Below, piece after piece: positions 1-5,604 of a stretch of DNA of 5,604 bases; the stretch's first letter is position 1, and every line of letters starts with the position of its first letter. This DNA comes from an uncultured Erysipelotrichaceae bacterium (GTDB lineage Bacteria; Bacillota_I; Bacilli_A; RFN20; CAG-826). Under the pieces are notes generated by a model. The model had not been told where the DNA came from. It was given only the letters and a program-made list of their open reading frames with translations, and ran no database searches. The stretch lies in assembly GCA_902782395.1 (NCBI GenBank), contig CACZNF010000047.1, positions 1 through 5,604 on the forward strand, written 5' to 3'. Made by a program: the position numbers and the translations under genes.

Positions 1-293
1 ATATCAACGCCTACTTCAGAAGTGGATACCGCCATGACGATATAATGACCAGAATGAGAGATATTAAAATATGGGCCATTTTCAAAGAATGGTTTCCCAT
101 TATTGTTTTTAGATAATGTTTCTTCAGATAATGCATTCTTCAAATATGAAGAAATAATCGAACGATCTTGATCAACTTCTTGCTTAAATGAAGAAGCGAT
201 TTGCTTTTGTTCTTCGTTGATATTTTTCAAAAGAAATGAACGGTGTTTTCTCGCCAAATCTACATTGACGACATATAAGTTAACGTTTTCCAT
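1..293 (-). CDS. Sfp-type 4'-phosphopantetheinyl transferase, N-terminal part (gene runs off the window)
   Basis: This enzyme family moves the 4'-phosphopantetheine arm of coenzyme A onto a serine of acyl carrier or peptidyl carrier proteins in the cytoplasm. Translating the minus strand from the ATG at 293 gives 97 codons without a stop up to the window edge. Family marks appear in the expected order: GKP at residues 66-68, FNISHS at 76-81 and VGVD at 94-97. The Asp at 97 corresponds to the first Mg-binding Asp of Sfp-like enzymes. The second half, with the W/FxxKE motif, lies outside the window. The first 60 residues are helical and charged, as is usual for the poorly conserved N-terminus. 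The gene is divergent from malQ. Its start has no good Shine-Dalgarno sequence; GGTGG lies 12 bases upstream, which is too far. Whether it serves fatty-acid ACP or a secondary-metabolite carrier cannot be told from here. Confidence 0.88.
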   Translation of the reverse strand, partial: MENVNLYVVNVDLARKHRSFLLKNINEEQKQIASSFKQEVDQDRSIISSYLKNALSEETLSKNNNGKPFFENGPYFNISHSGHYIVMAVSTSEVGVD

Positions 294-299
294 ATTTCT

Positions 300-308
300 A
301 TTATGCCA
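300..308 (-). promoter_or_regulatory. Putative extended -10 element for the PPTase gene
   Basis: The minus strand reads TGGCATAAT here, matching the TGn plus TATAAT extended -10 pattern with one mismatch. Only six bases separate the hexamer from the ATG at 293, so a start site seven bases downstream would fall on the A of the start codon. No convincing -35 is visible. The assignment is inferred from sequence only. Confidence 0.4.
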
Positions 309-331
309 CCAATAAGGAAGAAGATACCCCT

Positions 332-345
332 TTTTTATATAAAAA
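332..345. repeat. AT-only 14-bp perfect palindrome between the divergent PPTase and malQ genes
   Basis: TTTTTATATAAAAA is its own reverse complement and sits near the middle of the 73-bp divergent spacer. It could act as an A-tract/UP-like element for one or both promoters, or as a symmetric operator. In an AT-rich genome a palindrome of this simple composition can also arise by chance. Confidence 0.45.
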
Positions 346-366
346 GAATAGAGTAGACTATTTTCT

Positions 367-1737
367 ATGAAAAAAGAAAAGATTGGTGTTTTACTTCCAG
401 TATTCTCTCTTCCAGGAGACCATGGTATCGGTGATTTCTCTCATTACGCTTACCAATTTATCTCATGGCTTAAAGAACACCATTATAGATACTGGCAAAT
501 ATTACCTTTAAATCCAGTTGGTCCCGCTAATTCGCCATACATCACAGTGTGTAGTGAAGCGATTGATGTTCGTTACATCTCTTTAGAAGATTTAGTGGAA
601 CGTGGTTTATTAAATAATGTTCCAAATCACCACGCTAATGCTAATCGAGTGGACTATGGTGATACTTTAAGTTTTAAAGAAAAATACTTAAGACGTGCAT
701 ATAAAAACTCCAAGATTTCTCTTAATTCATTTAAGAAAAACAATCCATGGGTAGAAGCCTATGCTAAATATTTAGTTTTAAAAACCATCAATGATAACAA
801 ACCTTGGAATGAATGGATTATTACTAAAATCCCAAGCTTTGCTAATGATGAAATTAACTTCCATATTTGGTGTCAATATATTGCCTTAGATCAATGGAAC
901 AACATCAAGAAATTCGCTAATAAGAATAAAGTGAAGATTATCGCCGATTGTCCATTCTACGTTGGCCTTGATAGTGTGGACTGCTACATGAATAAAGATG
1001 AATTTATGTTGGATGAACACTATAACCCAACAGTGGTTTCTGGTTGCCCACCAGATGCTTTCTCAGATGATGGTCAATTATGGGGTACACCAATTTATAA
1101 CTTTGAAAAGATGAAAGAGAACAATTATAAGTTCTTAATCGATAGAATTACTTGCTTAGCAAGCAGAGCGGACATTCTCCGTTTAGATCACTTCCGTGCC
1201 TTTGACACATATTGTGTCATTCCAGCGGGAGATGAAAACGCTAGACGTGGTGAATGGAAAGTCGGTCCAAGAAATGAATTCTTTGACGCTTTGTACGCTA
1301 GAGAACCAAATATCAAAATTATCGCGGAAGACCTTGGTCTTCTCTTCGATAGTGTGCATGAACTAAGAGATTATTATCATCTACCAGGTATGCGTGTTAT
1401 CCAATTCTGTGCTTTTGAAACACTAGAGGAAAACGATAATATCATCCTTTACCCAGGTACACATGATAATCAAACCTTATATGGTTGGTTAAAGTGCTTA
1501 TCTAAAGAACAGAAAGATATTTTAAGAAAAGAACTACATCATCCTAAAGATTTATACGGCGCTTTATTCGCTGAGATCTGGAATATGACAAGTTTAATCA
1601 CCATCTTCCCAATGCAAGACTTATTAAAATTAGACGATACCGCCAGAATAAATCACCCTGGAACAGTAGGGGAACATAACTGGACATTCAAGTTTAAAAA
1701 CATGAATTTCTTAGAAACTGTCAAATATGGTCACTAG
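367..1737 (+). CDS. malQ: 4-alpha-glucanotransferase (amylomaltase, GH77)
   Basis: MalQ cuts an alpha-1,4-glucan and transfers the piece to the 4-OH of another glucan or glucose, in cytoplasmic maltodextrin and glycogen metabolism. The 456-residue product carries the GH77 marks in order: SLPGDHGIGD (14-23), LPLNPVG with NSPY (46-58), PPDAFSDDGQLWGTP (228-242), RLDHFRAF (272-279) with the nucleophile Asp274, AEDLG (320-324) with acid/base Glu321, and GTHDN (364-368) with Asp367. The C-terminal ARINHPGT...NW block (426-439) is present. It is somewhat shorter than the roughly 500 residues common for bacterial amylomaltases, mainly after that last block, but no catalytic part is missing. No maltose or glycogen gene adjoins it here. 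The ATG is followed at once by the family's N-terminal strand. No Shine-Dalgarno is evident; weak -10-like TAGAGT (349-354) and TAGACT (354-359) lie just upstream. Confidence 0.96.
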   Translation: MKKEKIGVLLPVFSLPGDHGIGDFSHYAYQFISWLKEHHYRYWQILPLNPVGPANSPYITVCSEAIDVRYISLEDLVERGLLNNVPNHHANANRVDYGDTLSFKEKYLRRAYKNSKISLNSFKKNNPWVEAYAKYLVLKTINDNKPWNEWIITKIPSFANDEINFHIWCQYIALDQWNNIKKFANKNKVKIIADCPFYVGLDSVDCYMNKDEFMLDEHYNPTVVSGCPPDAFSDDGQLWGTPIYNFEKMKENNYKFLIDRITCLASRADILRLDHFRAFDTYCVIPAGDENARRGEWKVGPRNEFFDALYAREPNIKIIAEDLGLLFDSVHELRDYYHLPGMRVIQFCAFETLEENDNIILYPGTHDNQTLYGWLKCLSKEQKDILRKELHHPKDLYGALFAEIWNMTSLITIFPMQDLLKLDDTARINHPGTVGEHNWTFKFKNMNFLETVKYGH

Positions 1738-1752
1738 TTTGACAGTTTTTTT
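1715..1752 (+). terminator. Rho-independent terminator of malQ, overlapping its coding end
   Basis: A perfect 11-bp inverted repeat, AAACTGTCAAA (1715-1725) and TTTGACAGTTT (1738-1748), has a 12-base loop and runs into a seven-T tract (1746-1752), then GTTTT. The left arm is inside the last codons of malQ and the TAG stop (1735-1737) is in the loop. Confidence 0.9.
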
Positions 1753-1799
1753 GTTTTGTATCTTTTGGCCTGGCGATTGGTTCTTTCCAGTTTTTGGTA

Positions 1800-1808
1800 T
1801 GTTATAAT
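1800..1808 (+). promoter_or_regulatory. Extended -10 promoter element of the phosphoesterase lipoprotein operon
   Basis: TGTTATAAT is a perfect extended -10 (TGn followed by consensus TATAAT at 1803-1808). Nine bases separate it from the ATG at 1818, so transcription would begin around A1815 and leave almost no 5' leader. No clear -35 is seen, which extended -10 promoters can tolerate. The rest of the 80-bp gap after malQ holds only the terminator tail and no recognisable operator. Confidence 0.7.
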
Positions 1809-1817
1809 TTGGACACT

Positions 1818-2798
1818 ATGAAAAACAAAATTACTGCATTGGCGTTTATTTCTTTGTTGGCTTTAAGTGCCTGCGGGACAAAGAATTATAAGCCTCAAGA
1901 TTACATCCTTGAAATGAACTACAAGGATGATTTCCGCATTTTACAACTAACAGACATCCATCTCTCTGATAAGGATGATCAAAAAACACAATTCAAGTTC
2001 ATGGATTTGCTTTATAAGGACGCGAATAATCCTGATCTTGTCGTGGTCACCGGTGACTTATTCACCTTCGCAAGCAAGAACACTGCGAAGAGCTTATTAA
2101 AATATTTTGATGACAAAGGTGTCCCATGGAGTGTTTGCTTTGGTAACCATGATGAGCAATGCTATTTCTCAGTGGATTGGTTAACCAAAACCCTTTCTGA
2201 ATATGGCTCAAACTGCTTATTCAAAGACTTACAAGACGATAAAGTTAATGGTAATTGCAACTTTGCGATTAACTTAATGAAAGATGGTAAAGTTCATGAT
2301 CAATTATTTGTCATGGATAGTAACCGTTATGACTTTAATTTCTCACAATTTGGTTATGACTGCTTCAAGCAAGATCAAATTGATTGGTATGAAAGCGTTG
2401 TTAAGTACACTAAAGAACAAAATGGTGGTGAAACCGTTAATTCCTTAATGTTCTATCACATTCCATTACCAGAAGTTAATGCCGCTTGGGATGAAGCGAA
2501 AAAAGATGACAAAGTCATTTATGGCGAAAAAAGAGAAGCTTCTTGCTCCCCAGACCATGACTATGGTTTCTTTAATAAAATTAAAGAATTAGGCTCCACA
2601 AAAGCGATGTTCTTTGGTCACGACCACATCAACAACTTTGAAGTTGATTATCAAGGTGTGAAGTTCTGCTACGGCATTAAATCCACTGACCGTATTTATC
2701 ACGATAATGATATGCTTGGTTGCCAAACCATCACCATCCATAATGACCATTCATTAACTATTGATAGATACTATCATACATACGCGGAGGTGAAATAA
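1818..2798 (+). CDS. Lipid-anchored calcineurin-like metallophosphoesterase (Dcr2/purple-acid-phosphatase-like)
   Basis: This is a two-metal phosphoesterase predicted to sit on the outer face of the membrane. The 326-residue product starts with a lipoprotein signal: a short positive N-terminus (MKNK), a hydrophobic stretch (5-16) and lipobox LSAC with Cys19. The mature part has the full calcineurin-like set: DIH (46-48), GD (79-80), GNHD (109-112), His214 in FYHIP and GHDH (267-270), so all metal ligands are present. The spacing, and phrases such as LQLTDIHLS and VPWSVCFGNHDE, resemble the Dcr2-like branch. The substrate cannot be inferred. A TTG at 1794 would add eight codons, but that extension would run through the -10 box and spoil the short signal peptide start, so ATG 1818 is preferred. 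It is the first gene of an operon with the membrane protein one base downstream. Confidence 0.93.
   Translation: MKNKITALAFISLLALSACGTKNYKPQDYILEMNYKDDFRILQLTDIHLSDKDDQKTQFKFMDLLYKDANNPDLVVVTGDLFTFASKNTAKSLLKYFDDKGVPWSVCFGNHDEQCYFSVDWLTKTLSEYGSNCLFKDLQDDKVNGNCNFAINLMKDGKVHDQLFVMDSNRYDFNFSQFGYDCFKQDQIDWYESVVKYTKEQNGGETVNSLMFYHIPLPEVNAAWDEAKKDDKVIYGEKREASCSPDHDYGFFNKIKELGSTKAMFFGHDHINNFEVDYQGVKFCYGIKSTDRIYHDNDMLGCQTITIHNDHSLTIDRYYHTYAEVK
2786..2792 (+). promoter_or_regulatory. Strong Shine-Dalgarno site for the downstream membrane protein
   Basis: GGAGGTG lies nine bases (counted from GGAGG) before ATG 2800, inside the last codons of the phosphoesterase gene. It is the only strong ribosome binding site in the window and shows that the organism's ribosomes do use SD pairing. 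The position suggests that translation of the two genes is coupled. Confidence 0.85.
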
Positions 2799-2799
2799 T

Positions 2800-3681
2800 A
2801 TGAGTAAGAAATTCTCTTTGATTGCTTTAGCAATTATTGCCGTTCTCGGCTCATTAATGGCCTTTGCGGCATCTAACTTATTCTTTACAGACGTTCCATA
2901 TTTTGGTCCACATATTATGGATACTGCAATCTTCTTAAGTTTCACCGCTTTATTATTCGGTGCTTACTTTGTAATAGGCGCGATGTATATTGTGCGTTCA
3001 TATTTAAAGCCAAACATTCGTAAGAAAATGTCTAAGACATACTTAAAGACCACAATGGTTTTAGCGGGTTTAGGCTTTGTTTTTGCTATTCTTGCTGCTG
3101 TTATTAACTATAACGGTAACTTCCTTGCATCCGCTCCATTCCCAGGATTCATTGTCCTTATGATGGTGGCCCACTTATTAGTGTTAGGTGGTTCAATATT
3201 CGCTTTCTTAAAACCTGTTAAGGCTTTACCAGAAGATACAGAGGAGTTTAAAGTTGGCGCCAAACACGTCTTCTTCACTATGGGTTGGTTCTTATTTACC
3301 GCTTTAGCGTTTAACCGTTTCGGTGCATTCTTAACCATGCCAATCTATGTGGAATTAAGAAACTTCTACCAAACAGTCTTCTTCTATTTATTCTTATTAG
3401 TGCCAATGGCGATCTTAGTAAAAAAAGTCTTCGACGTCTTTGAACTAAAATTAGATAGATTTATCTACGTGATTATTTTATTCGCTATTAACTTAGTTTT
3501 ATTCATAGTGGTGGCGATTATTGGTTTAAACGATACAACATTCGTTTCTTCCTTATCACCAGCTATGCCACTTGAAAGATTAGCGGCAAAACCAGTGGAA
3601 ATCATTATCCACTTTGCGTCACAATTCGGCATTTTACTCGCTTGGTTAATTAGAGAAATTAAAGCGAAGAAGAACGCTTAG
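2800..3681 (+). CDS. Hypothetical multi-pass membrane protein, operon partner of the phosphoesterase
   Basis: I do not recognise a family for this 293-residue protein. Hydrophobic stretches suggest about eight spans, near residues 5-28, 42-66, 84-103, 116-136, 155-172, 190-208, 221-243 and 265-285. Short charged connectors (KPNIRKKMSK at 70-79, the acidic PEDTEEF around 144-150, and a lysine-rich tail) fit an inner-membrane protein. There is no cleavable signal, no ATPase motif and no obvious catalytic motif. It starts one base after the phosphoesterase stop with a strong Shine-Dalgarno sequence, so the two are very probably made together. A role supporting, anchoring or supplying substrate to the surface phosphoesterase is inference from context only. 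Its 3' end overlaps the convergent bioY gene by 23 bp. Confidence 0.85.
   Translation: MSKKFSLIALAIIAVLGSLMAFAASNLFFTDVPYFGPHIMDTAIFLSFTALLFGAYFVIGAMYIVRSYLKPNIRKKMSKTYLKTTMVLAGLGFVFAILAAVINYNGNFLASAPFPGFIVLMMVAHLLVLGGSIFAFLKPVKALPEDTEEFKVGAKHVFFTMGWFLFTALAFNRFGAFLTMPIYVELRNFYQTVFFYLFLLVPMAILVKKVFDVFELKLDRFIYVIILFAINLVLFIVVAIIGLNDTTFVSSLSPAMPLERLAAKPVEIIIHFASQFGILLAWLIREIKAKKNA
3588..3613 (-). terminator. Possible weak terminator for bioY inside the membrane-protein gene
   Basis: Read on the minus strand, a 6-bp stem AGTGGA/TCCACT (arms 3613-3608 and 3599-3594, loop of eight) is followed by GG and then TTTT (3591-3588). It lies 46 bases past the bioY stop. The stem is short and the T run is interrupted from the stem, so this may be chance. 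Confidence 0.3.
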
Positions 3682-4186
3682 GTAAAAGCGAAACCACGAG
3701 TACCGCGATAATAATCTTCGCGATATCAAAAGGTATATAAGGCACTACTGCAATAAGTAGTGCTTTTTGTATATTAAGTTTTAAATATAAGGCTAAGAAA
3801 GTAGTGCCAATGGCGTAGCACACTAATAAACCAACGACGCAAGCAATTGCCATACGAATGAATTGGTTTTTGATTGGTAATTTATTTAAAAAATAAAGTG
3901 GAATAACTAAAACCACAAAAGAGATAACGAAACCAAATGTTGGAGTAACACCTGCGGTAAAGCCTGCATAGACAGGAATTAATAAACCGATAGCGAGATA
4001 TAAACCAGTCACAATAACGGCGTCAATTACGGAAACAGAAGTAAGACCGATGATAAAGACCATTAATAACTGTAAAGAGACTTTGATGTTATCCCCTAAT
4101 GGGAGAGAGAACATACCAATGACGCATAGTAATGCAAGCATTACAGCGTTTCTAGCCATTCTAACAATCTGCTTCTTTTTATCCAT
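3659..4186 (-). CDS. bioY: Biotin transporter substrate-binding subunit BioY
   Basis: BioY is the membrane S-component that captures biotin, working alone or with a shared ECF energizing module (EcfA/EcfT); no such module is in this window. The 175-residue product is almost entirely hydrophobic with about six spans. Family landmarks are IKVSLQLLMVF (34-44, the 'v.tlQ.l.v' block), the loop PVYAGFTAG (71-79) followed by TPTFGF (81-86, in place of the usual GPTGGY), and PYIPFDIAK (149-157) with the conserved Asp-Lys near the last span. The length is slightly short of the usual 180-200. No BirA-type GTTAAC palindrome is visible upstream, so regulation is unclear. The start at 4186 has no well-placed Shine-Dalgarno; GGGG is 15 bases away. 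The gene is convergent with the membrane protein and divergent from the SWIM gene. Confidence 0.9.
   Translation of the reverse strand: MDKKKQIVRMARNAVMLALLCVIGMFSLPLGDNIKVSLQLLMVFIIGLTSVSVIDAVIVTGLYLAIGLLIPVYAGFTAGVTPTFGFVISFVVLVIPLYFLNKLPIKNQFIRMAIACVVGLLVCYAIGTTFLALYLKLNIQKALLIAVVPYIPFDIAKIIIAVLVVSLLPKRSSSL
3742..3768 (+). terminator. Rho-independent terminator of the phosphoesterase operon, embedded in bioY
   Basis: A perfect 8-bp stem GCACTACT (3742-3749) / AGTAGTGC (3756-3763) with a six-base loop is followed by TTTTT (3764-3768), then GT. It lies 60 bases past the operon's stop codon and entirely within the antisense bioY coding sequence, where the same bases encode KALLIAVV (bioY residues 141-148). 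On the minus strand the stem lacks a T tract, so it is directional. Confidence 0.8.
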
Positions 4187-4195
4187 ACCTGAAAC

Positions 4196-4201
4196 ATTCT
4201 A
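4196..4201 (-). promoter_or_regulatory. Putative -10 element of bioY
   Basis: The minus strand reads TAGAAT (one mismatch to TATAAT), ending nine bases before ATG 4186. TTCACT, a four-of-six match to the -35 consensus, lies 16 bases upstream. A start site seven bases after the hexamer leaves a leader of only a few bases. Inferred from sequence. Confidence 0.4.
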
Positions 4202-4251
4202 CCCCTTTTTGTAAAATAGTGAACGATTTTATGTATTGTTTTTTGATGTTT

Positions 4252-4260
4252 TGATATAAT
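4252..4260 (+). promoter_or_regulatory. Extended -10 promoter element of the SWIM-domain gene
   Basis: TGATATAAT is a perfect TGn plus TATAAT element ending 11 bases before ATG 4272. A start site near 4267 would give a leader of about five bases. AAGGG (4262-4266) could look like a weak Shine-Dalgarno, but with this promoter it would lie at or before the transcript start. TAAAAT at 4212-4217 is a weaker alternative -10 that would include it. Confidence 0.65.
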
Positions 4261-4271
4261 TAAGGGTACGT

Positions 4272-5604
4272 ATGGCGGTTCGTTACTTAATACTCAAACA
4301 CCTTTCGCTCGGATATGGTGTGTTACTCAAAAGAGAAAATGGTGATTTAGGCCATGTTTATTTCGCTGACACTAAATCCACCAAACAAGTTCTTTTATCA
4401 CATCCAAATTTAATGGTTGCCGATAATATCACCCTTTCTAAGTTTGTCTCTTTAGGACTTTATGAAGGATTATTTGATAACGCCACTAAAGCGAAAGCGA
4501 TGGAATATCTTAACGGCGCAATTAAAGATATGCACTTAAGTGAGAATGAATGCTATGGCAAGATTGAAGGCACTAAAGAATATGCTTTTAGAATTGTTGT
4601 GGATTCTAATTCCTTTATTACCTTAACTTGCTCTTGTCCAGTCGGTGGTGCGTGTAAGCATTTATACGCTGTTTTATTAACGATGAAAAAGCTCCTTGAT
4701 CCAAAAGGTGAAAAGGTCATGCCTAATATCGCTAGTAATGAAAAAACATATAAAGATCTTTTAGAAAGATACCTCTATCTAAGAGGGGGAGATAACATTC
4801 CTCTAGTGAGCAAGCTCTCTTATCAAATTAGAGGCTTTGAACAATGCCAAAAGTTCGTCGAAGAAGTATTACCTTATTATCAAAGAGGTCAATATAAGGT
4901 GAGAACAGTTAATGATATTCTCGCACCTTTATTCTTTAATGAACAAAACGTTAATAATTTCCAAAAGATTTTAGAAACCGCGAACGATAATATTAAAGCC
5001 ATGCTTTTAGAAGCGGACAATGTCTTCCAAACATTGAATGAAGAACTCGAAAAGAGAAGGGGTGTGACTAGAAAAGCTAATCTTTATAACATCTTATTAG
5101 CCCCTAACTGTGACGCTTTAATTGAGTTATTAAAACACGCGGAAGATAACTATTCAGAAGAAAGAATAGCGAGCCAAGTGATGATGGAATACTTGAAGTA
5201 TCAAGATCTAACCATCGAACAAATTGCTGCGCTTAAAGGCTCCTATTTATTCCAAATGAATCACCGTTATTACATGCAAGATTTATTCGCTTCTCCAGCG
5301 AAGAATAGATTAAGTATTTATTTATTACTTTTTGATGAATTACCACTTGATGAAAATAAGATTAGACAAATACCTTTAGAGTATTTCTTAAAGGTTTCTC
5401 CATATAGTAACGATAAAACCAGATATGTCCAAATCGTGCACGCTAATTACGGAAGTGTGAAAGAAGAAGACTATCCTTTAGTGAGTGAGTTACTTATCGG
5501 TGCGGCTTTGCAACACGATTATTTAGATGAAAGAACAATTCGCTTAGCGATTGAACTTAGTAAGAAGATTCCTCAAGGTTCATTTATTAGTGAACTAGTG
5601 GATA
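4272..5604 (+). CDS. SWIM zinc-finger protein, N-terminal 444 residues; probable SNF2-type helicase (gene runs off the window)
   Basis: The frame stays open from ATG 4272 to the window edge. An in-frame TAA at 4257-4259 limits upstream extension. Residues 119-133 (TCSCPVGGACKHLYA) form a SWIM zinc finger, CxC-x5-CxH, with ligands Cys120, Cys122, Cys128 and His130; such fingers bind nucleic acid or protein. Ahead of it, residues 8-48 follow an H..lGyGvl....g...VyF.d...Kqvll...L pattern, resembling the small beta-barrel (DUF3553/CarD-like) modules of DNA-associated proteins. Residues 155-444 are largely charged helical sequence with no Walker A or DEAD-type motif. In Firmicutes a SWIM finger followed by a long helical region commonly precedes a SNF2 ATPase domain, which here would lie beyond the window. 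That completion is inference; the SWIM call itself is secure. The gene is divergent from bioY. Confidence 0.85.
   Translation, partial: MAVRYLILKHLSLGYGVLLKRENGDLGHVYFADTKSTKQVLLSHPNLMVADNITLSKFVSLGLYEGLFDNATKAKAMEYLNGAIKDMHLSENECYGKIEGTKEYAFRIVVDSNSFITLTCSCPVGGACKHLYAVLLTMKKLLDPKGEKVMPNIASNEKTYKDLLERYLYLRGGDNIPLVSKLSYQIRGFEQCQKFVEEVLPYYQRGQYKVRTVNDILAPLFFNEQNVNNFQKILETANDNIKAMLLEADNVFQTLNEELEKRRGVTRKANLYNILLAPNCDALIELLKHAEDNYSEERIASQVMMEYLKYQDLTIEQIAALKGSYLFQMNHRYYMQDLFASPAKNRLSIYLLLFDELPLDENKIRQIPLEYFLKVSPYSNDKTRYVQIVHANYGSVKEEDYPLVSELLIGAALQHDYLDERTIRLAIELSKKIPQGSFISELVD

Follow-up and report, generated by a model that had tools for sequence, protein, structure and literature searches.

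Genes of the window and the boxes before their start codons

The stretch of DNA analysed here, which we call the window, is 5,604 nucleotides long and lies on contig CACZNF010000047.1 of an uncultured Erysipelotrichaceae bacterium (assembly GCA_902782395.1). Six genes were found in it: those for a phosphopantetheinyl transferase (PPTase, on the minus strand and cut by the window end), the glucanotransferase MalQ, a calcineurin-like phosphoesterase, a membrane protein, the biotin transporter component BioY (on the minus strand) and a SWIM-domain protein (also cut). Our subject is the way in which translation starts at five of these genes, where a -10-like promoter hexamer stands almost directly before the ATG. 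Two pairs of genes are divergent, PPTase/malQ with 73 bases from ATG to ATG and bioY/SWIM with 85. Behind malQ stands a terminator-like hairpin with a T-run, so the phosphoesterase gene opens its own unit. By this arrangement the five genes plausibly open transcription units. The membrane protein gene is internal to an operon; it matched no Pfam family at E ≤ 0.001. No Rfam family was found in the window at the gathering score. The N-terminus of the phosphoesterase looks like a lipoprotein signal (LSAC).

An earlier note on this DNA had named hexamers 6-12 bases before the ATG of all five first genes and a Shine-Dalgarno (SD) motif before the operon-internal gene, and both observations were confirmed (Table 1). 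The hexamers stand 6, 7 (or 12), 9, 9 and 11 bases from the ATG. On the minus strand, TGGCATAAT lies 6 bases upstream of the ATG of the PPTase gene. TGTTATAAT is placed 9 bases before that of the phosphoesterase gene and TGATATAAT 11 bases before that of the SWIM gene. The malQ gene has two candidate hexamers, among which the TANACT form is the conserved one. At the membrane protein gene, GCGGAGGTGAARTAAT is retained in 6 other distinct ortholog upstreams, among those listed.

In the mechanism that we propose, a -10 box of the sigma-A type would adjoin the start codon, and RNA polymerase would start about 7-8 bases after the box; both the sigma factor and the start points are predictions. With such a start the first six bases after the hexamer are untranscribed. 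The leader would then be 0 bases long at the PPTase gene, where the predicted RNA start is the A of ATG, and at malQ. It would measure about 3-5 bases at the phosphoesterase, bioY and SWIM genes (about 4 predicted for the last). mRNAs with 0-5 leader bases cannot carry an SD motif, and ribosomes would most likely bind the 5'-terminal or near-terminal AUG through the known leaderless pathway. The SD motif serves the operon-internal genes of the same genomes, as well as many of their other first genes.

Table 1. Positions of genes, putative promoters and other features in the window
Feature	Position	Strand	Detail or evidence
PPTase, 5' part, gene cut by window end	3..293	-	Pfam PF22624, E 1.6e-06
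Putative PPTase promoter: TGG 306-308, -10 CATAAT 300-305, 6 bases 294-299, ATG 291-293	294..308	-	window sequence
malQ promoter candidates: TAGACT 354-359, spacing 7; TAGAGT 349-354, spacing 12	349..366	+	window sequence
malQ, 4-alpha-glucanotransferase (GH77)	367..1737	+	Pfam PF02446, E 1.8e-124
Terminator-like hairpin and T-run 3' of malQ	1713..1751	+	fold of 1701-1765, -15.9 kcal/mol
Putative phosphoesterase promoter: TGT 1800-1802, TATAAT 1803-1808, discriminator 1809-1814, predicted leader ACT 1815-1817	1800..1817	+	
Calcineurin-like phosphoesterase	1818..2798	+	Pfam PF00149, E 1.2e-12
GGAGG, Shine-Dalgarno motif before the membrane protein gene inside the operon	2786..2790	+	ends 9 bases before ATG at 2800
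Predicted membrane protein (gene after that of the phosphoesterase in the operon)	2800..3681	+	no Pfam match at E ≤ 0.001
bioY, biotin transporter component	3659..4186	-	Pfam PF02632, E 4.5e-21
Putative bioY promoter: -10 TAGAAT 4196-4201, 9 bases, ATG 4184-4186, predicted leader about 3 bases	4187..4201	-	
Conserved TTTTTTGATGTTTTG running into the -10 of the SWIM gene	4239..4253	+	identity 0.95 over 12 bases before TGn
Putative SWIM gene promoter: TGA 4252-4254, TATAAT 4255-4260, discriminator 4261-4266, position 7 to ATG 4267-4271	4252..4271	+	
SWIM zinc-finger gene, cut by window end	4272..5604	+	Pfam PF04434, E 2.1e-05

Conservation of the boxes and of the start codons

Relatives were found by one malQ scan of GTDB genomes, which gave 25 loci. 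The closest locus came from a metagenome-assembled genome (MAG) labelled uncultured Erysipelotrichaceae RUG14382 (malQ 93%), and many others carried the labels of rumen, reticulum or omasum MAGs of Bacilli. The name rumen Bacilli is used here because of these labels, and the source bacterium is probably rumen-dwelling. Conservation was scored over the distinct upstreams of each window gene and its orthologs, with matches below 45% identity left out. A hexamer counted if it agreed with TATAAT in at least 5/6 positions and stood 4-13 bases before the ATG, and the result was compared with shuffles.

Such a hexamer was present in all distinct upstreams of four genes: PPTase (12/12), phosphoesterase (7/7), bioY (13/13) and SWIM (15/15). 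The shuffles of these genes had means of 0.10-0.15 and maxima of 0.38-0.57. The spacing was kept as well. It was 6 in 10/12 upstreams of the PPTase gene (with a tie between 6 and 9 in L005 and 7 in one), and 9 in 7/7 of the phosphoesterase gene. For bioY it was 10 in nine upstreams, 9 in three and 13 in one; for the SWIM gene it was 11 in 13 upstreams and 10 in two, with relatives at 56 and 60% protein identity included. Overall, the orthologs keeping both hexamer and spacing span about 52-97% protein identity. A near-ATG hexamer was found in 0/6 distinct upstreams of the SD-led membrane protein gene.

The malQ gene is the weakest of the five near-ATG cases. About 2/19 upstreams reached 5/6 (0.11, versus a shuffle mean of 0.19), which is partly because the 19 upstreams include distant SD-like relatives. 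At a looser cut of 4/6 the value was 0.68, compared with 0.50 for shuffles. In the 7 distinct close upstreams the TANACT hexamer has spacing 7, and in L010, L009 and L025 it has 8-9; 6/19 upstreams, most of them from distant relatives (about 50% identity or less), are without such a hexamer. Of the three imperfect hexamers that the earlier note thought might be chance matches, two are conserved, and that of malQ does not beat its shuffles by the 5/6 test. We also observed that the malQ relatives at about 50% identity (L013-L019, L024) have no TANACT at this place, and several carry the SD-like motifs AAGGA, GAGG or GAGGG.

The start codons of the window genes are predictions, which leaves room for the view that the promoters are real and that translation begins at downstream SD-led codons, behind a leader longer than it appears. 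This is very improbable. No SD-like motif precedes an in-frame ATG, GTG or TTG within the first 50 codons of any of the five genes, and in relatives the N-termini are conserved and begin at the same ATG. In-frame stops lie 18, 15 and 15 bases upstream of the ATG of malQ, bioY and the SWIM gene, and malQ has no alternative start within 50 codons. Upstream of the phosphoesterase ATG there are two in-frame TTG codons, both without SD. At four of the five genes no SD motif was found 3-13 bases before the ATG; the exception is the PPTase gene, whose GGTG at 13 bases falls within the promoter, upstream of the expected RNA start. AUG is the start codon in 5/5 window genes and in 58/59 family-collapsed first-type genes of relatives (defined below) with a hexamer at spacing 6-11.

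For the three genes whose gap extends beyond six bases, we calculated the mean pairwise identity over distinct upstreams, block by block. Hexamer, discriminator and leader had identities of 1.00, 0.81 and 1.00 at the phosphoesterase gene, and of 0.89, 0.53 and 0.90 in the spacing-10 group of bioY. At the SWIM gene the values were 1.00 for the hexamer, 0.60 for the discriminator and 0.91 from position 7 to the ATG. The higher identity of the last bases before the ATG fits a conserved mini-leader.

Start signals across the genes of relatives

Our first crude counts, made without confirmed starts, were weak, and ortholog-confirmed starts and all-gene Markov expectations were used later. Gene calling in the sampled stretches of relatives relied on codon usage alone and took in no SD or -10 information. 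A gene was taken as first-type if it was divergent or if over 25 bases separated it from the preceding gene on its strand. The main sample, from the stretches of five relatives (G001, G002, G003, G005 and G010), contained 701 first-type and 363 operon-internal genes. Contig-edge genes, upstreams shorter than 70 bases and 41 homologs of window genes (whole set) were removed from the counts in relatives, as were the stretches L039 and L155, which overlap with L001 and L006.

Of the 701 first-type genes, 92 had a -10-like hexamer at spacing 5-11, versus 45.5 ± 6.9 expected from a first-order Markov model. At spacing 6-7 there were 45, with 12.7 expected, and among divergent genes alone 40/204 had a hexamer at 5-11 (15.5 expected). 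Close operon-internal genes were depleted (3/363 versus 18.8 expected). The positional -10 peak that the earlier note had proposed to look for was therefore present at first-type genes and absent at internal ones. The excess amounts to about 7% of first-type genes and about 12% of divergent genes. In the outgroup G013 there was no excess (10/211, 10.0 expected); G011, whose malQ is about 50% identical, had some (17/135, 9.3 expected). When a motif was fitted with free spacing to the 701 genes by expectation maximization (EM), TGaTATAAT was returned; at spacing 5-11 the fit gave 69.5 expected members, and five shuffles gave 16.5-33.9. The profile also has a valley and a second hump at 19-32.

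SD-like motifs preceded 311/701 first-type genes and 236/363 internal genes of the five relatives. The near-ATG -10 is a minority mode because so many first-type genes have an SD-like motif. Leaderless starts are not the majority rule for first genes that the earlier note had suggested, and five of five in the window is a local cluster. Its other expectation, of SD-led internal genes without a near-ATG -10, agrees with the counts. A 16S match was obtained in 1/13 genomes; the 16S 3' end of the relative G009 is ...GGATCACCTCCTTTCT, which means that the SD route is present too.

The distances between hexamer and ATG were not evenly used. Among 501 family-collapsed first-type genes, spacing 6 occurred 23 times (4.7 expected, P 1.3e-9) and spacing 9 occurred 18 times (4.6 expected, P 2e-6). 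Spacings 7, 8 and 10 were at background level (6, 5 and 2), and spacing 11 occurred 8 times (P 0.09). In genes with spacing 6, a pyrimidine preceded the ATG in 35/35 cases (29/29 after family collapse), compared with 0.76 of SD-led genes (P 3.5e-4) and 0.66 of other first genes. Such a base would be expected if transcription began at the A of ATG. At spacing 9, a pyrimidine-purine (Y-R) step stood at positions 6/7 in 9/18 genes, versus 0.26 for 1,425 TATAATs (P 0.025). R-Y-Y as the main type of 3-base leader was not established (9/18 versus 63/219 SD-led genes, P 0.067). Since spacings 6 and 9 are over-represented, 7, 8 and 10 are at background and leaders are more conserved than discriminators, we tentatively raise the idea, which we regard as doubtful, that these rumen Bacilli could have, in place of plain leaderless starts, two discrete ultra-short leader classes of exactly 0 and about 3 bases, with selection for the leader words ACU, GGUU and AGGU.

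Wrongly called starts were considered as a source of the two peaks, both of which share the reading frame with TAT AAT, and were rejected. The peaks remain (26 and 17) in the 399 genes with an in-frame stop no more than 45 bases upstream, where spacings 5, 7, 8, 10 and 11 had 1-9 genes. Hexamers at spacings 13-45 showed no frame preference (83, 78 and 76).

Orthologous families were also compared, using pairs of 35-97% identity with a coverage of at least 70%. Ninety families had at least two confirmed first-type members, and in 13/90 the hexamer stood at 5-11 in at least two of them. The valley at spacings 10-16 held 4 families, below this number. One representative each of 12/13 families was scanned for Pfam families. 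The functions were a VTT membrane protein, a PD-(D/E)XK nuclease, GNAT, NUDIX, an ABC ATPase, a GdpP-like phosphodiesterase, PTS EIIB, YlbF, a PP-loop protein with GNAT, a HAD hydrolase, a small kinase-like P-loop protein (Zeta_toxin/AAA_18, a weak match) and one protein without a family. No obvious function was shared among the 12. For the ABC ATPase the sequences suggest that the start mode has switched between relatives: the G013 ortholog (L121) has a leadered GAGGTG start, and those of G001 (L046), G003 and G010 have a near-ATG -10.

Weight of the evidence and known leaderless systems

The best reading of these sequences is that the mRNAs have leaders of 0-5 bases. We put at about 0.8 the probability that the five window promoters, malQ least surely, give leaderless mRNAs or mRNAs with a 3-5-base leader. 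Leaderless or ultra-short-leader starts, as the earlier note had proposed them, are well supported at the PPTase, phosphoesterase, bioY and SWIM genes by the conserved hexamer and spacing, and more weakly at malQ.

Several results, besides those on malQ, weigh against these short leaders. EM on the single genomes G001 and G010 was not above their own shuffles. The raw count of TGNTATAATN{5,9}ATG in 59 relatives, taken from complete counts for each genome, was 779, versus 780 at spacing 13-17, so exact TGNTATAAT strings by themselves do not reveal the class. The number of families at spacings 16-22 and 18-24, which are ordinary leadered promoters, was 14 versus the 13 at 5-11. One-per-family counts were weak against the density at spacing 20-60 (9 versus 5.3, 5 versus 4.8, 4 versus 3.4). 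The Y-R step was not enriched after hexamers at 19-40 (0.29 and 0.28, background 0.26); the step is thus no strong general sign of a promoter in these genomes, which weakens the initiator argument. The context of the start codon could also conserve the last bases before the ATG.

The lack of a spacing excess in raw counts and the failure of malQ to exceed its shuffles would be understandable if the hexamers were chance matches and the real promoters lay further upstream, the genes being SD-less but leadered. In AT-rich DNA, chance yields about 45/701 first-type genes with such a hexamer. We consider this explanation unlikely, given that four of the five genes, each with 7-15 distinct upstreams, keep hexamer and spacing, and that the hexamer is twice as frequent as expected at first-type genes and depleted at internal ones.

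Extra upstream promoters with longer leaders may also exist, and the sequence leaves a distal promoter possible. Promoters of streptococci can be multiple. That the near-ATG promoters are secondary, the main and leadered mRNA being made from a distal one, nevertheless seems improbable to us, as the short distances between the divergent ATGs and the hairpin before the phosphoesterase gene leave little room for it.

Short or missing leaders would place the rumen Bacilli beside known systems. Published studies report leaderless mRNAs for 8% of mRNAs in S. agalactiae (78, with a leader < 5 bases and 90% at the A of AUG; PMC4448216) and for 8.6% in S. pyogenes (67, of which 54, or 81% of the S. pyogenes set, are shared with S. 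agalactiae; PMC6431027). In S. pneumoniae 70/768 operons (9%) were leaderless, and a reporter test showed efficient translation (PMC6212727). According to Zheng et al. 2011, leaderless genes were computed in 56/209 Firmicutes genomes (mean 4.2%), with a mean of 18.3% in Mycoplasma and a computed class also in Lactobacillales; a TAtAAT signal lies near the start, and TG precedes the box in low-GC genomes, strongly in Lactococcus (PMC3160421). About nine leaderless cases each are given for Mycoplasma gallisepticum and Mesoplasma florum. The mode, which the earlier note had thought notable for a low-GC Firmicute, is hence already documented in Streptococcus, Lactococcus and Mycoplasma.

The streptococci are alike in several respects: they are low-GC Firmicutes with a minority mode beside SD-led genes, ATG starts and many leaderless genes conserved between species, and S. 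agalactiae has extended -10 promoters (PMC4448216). Their starts were mapped, whereas ours are inferred from the sequence of an uncultured organism of a different lineage. About 90% of those of S. agalactiae fall exactly at the A of AUG; here the second cluster, at spacing 9, suggests leaders of about 3 bases. The computed genes of Lactobacillales and Mycoplasma likewise have TAtAAT close to the start and TG before the box (PMC3160421). Actinobacteria and Deinococcus-Thermus share the -10 box directly before the start codon, but with TAnnnT, high GC and about 20% and 40% of genes, compared with a modest minority here (PMC3160421). The text consulted of Zheng et al. does not mention the lineage studied here (PMC3160421), and among the matches listed in a literature search on leaderless starts with Erysipelotrichaceae or rumen/metagenome the lineage was not covered.

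In conclusion, the near-ATG -10 of rumen Bacilli is a real but ordinary case of an already known start mode, and a known minority mode is extended to an uncultured lineage. Where start prediction is based on SD motifs, such genes may be misplaced. The 6/9 spacing pattern, if true, raises the question of how ribosomes treat a 3-base leader versus none.

Some minor observations concern the second half of the window. The membrane protein gene and bioY have convergent 3' ends, which overlap by 23 bases (3659-3681). The family of the SWIM-domain gene is narrowly distributed: near full-length relatives were found in 14/59 related genomes searched, and weak partial matches in 4 more. Before its -10, TTTTTTGATGTTTTG is conserved like the promoter itself and, in the sampled stretches, adjoins TATAAT at the SWIM gene only. 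The 1.64 Mb of the five relatives contain TGATGTTTTGNTATAAT 5 times, each time in the SWIM upstream of one of them. TTTTTTGATGTTTTG may be the site of a regulator, or else an upstream promoter element.

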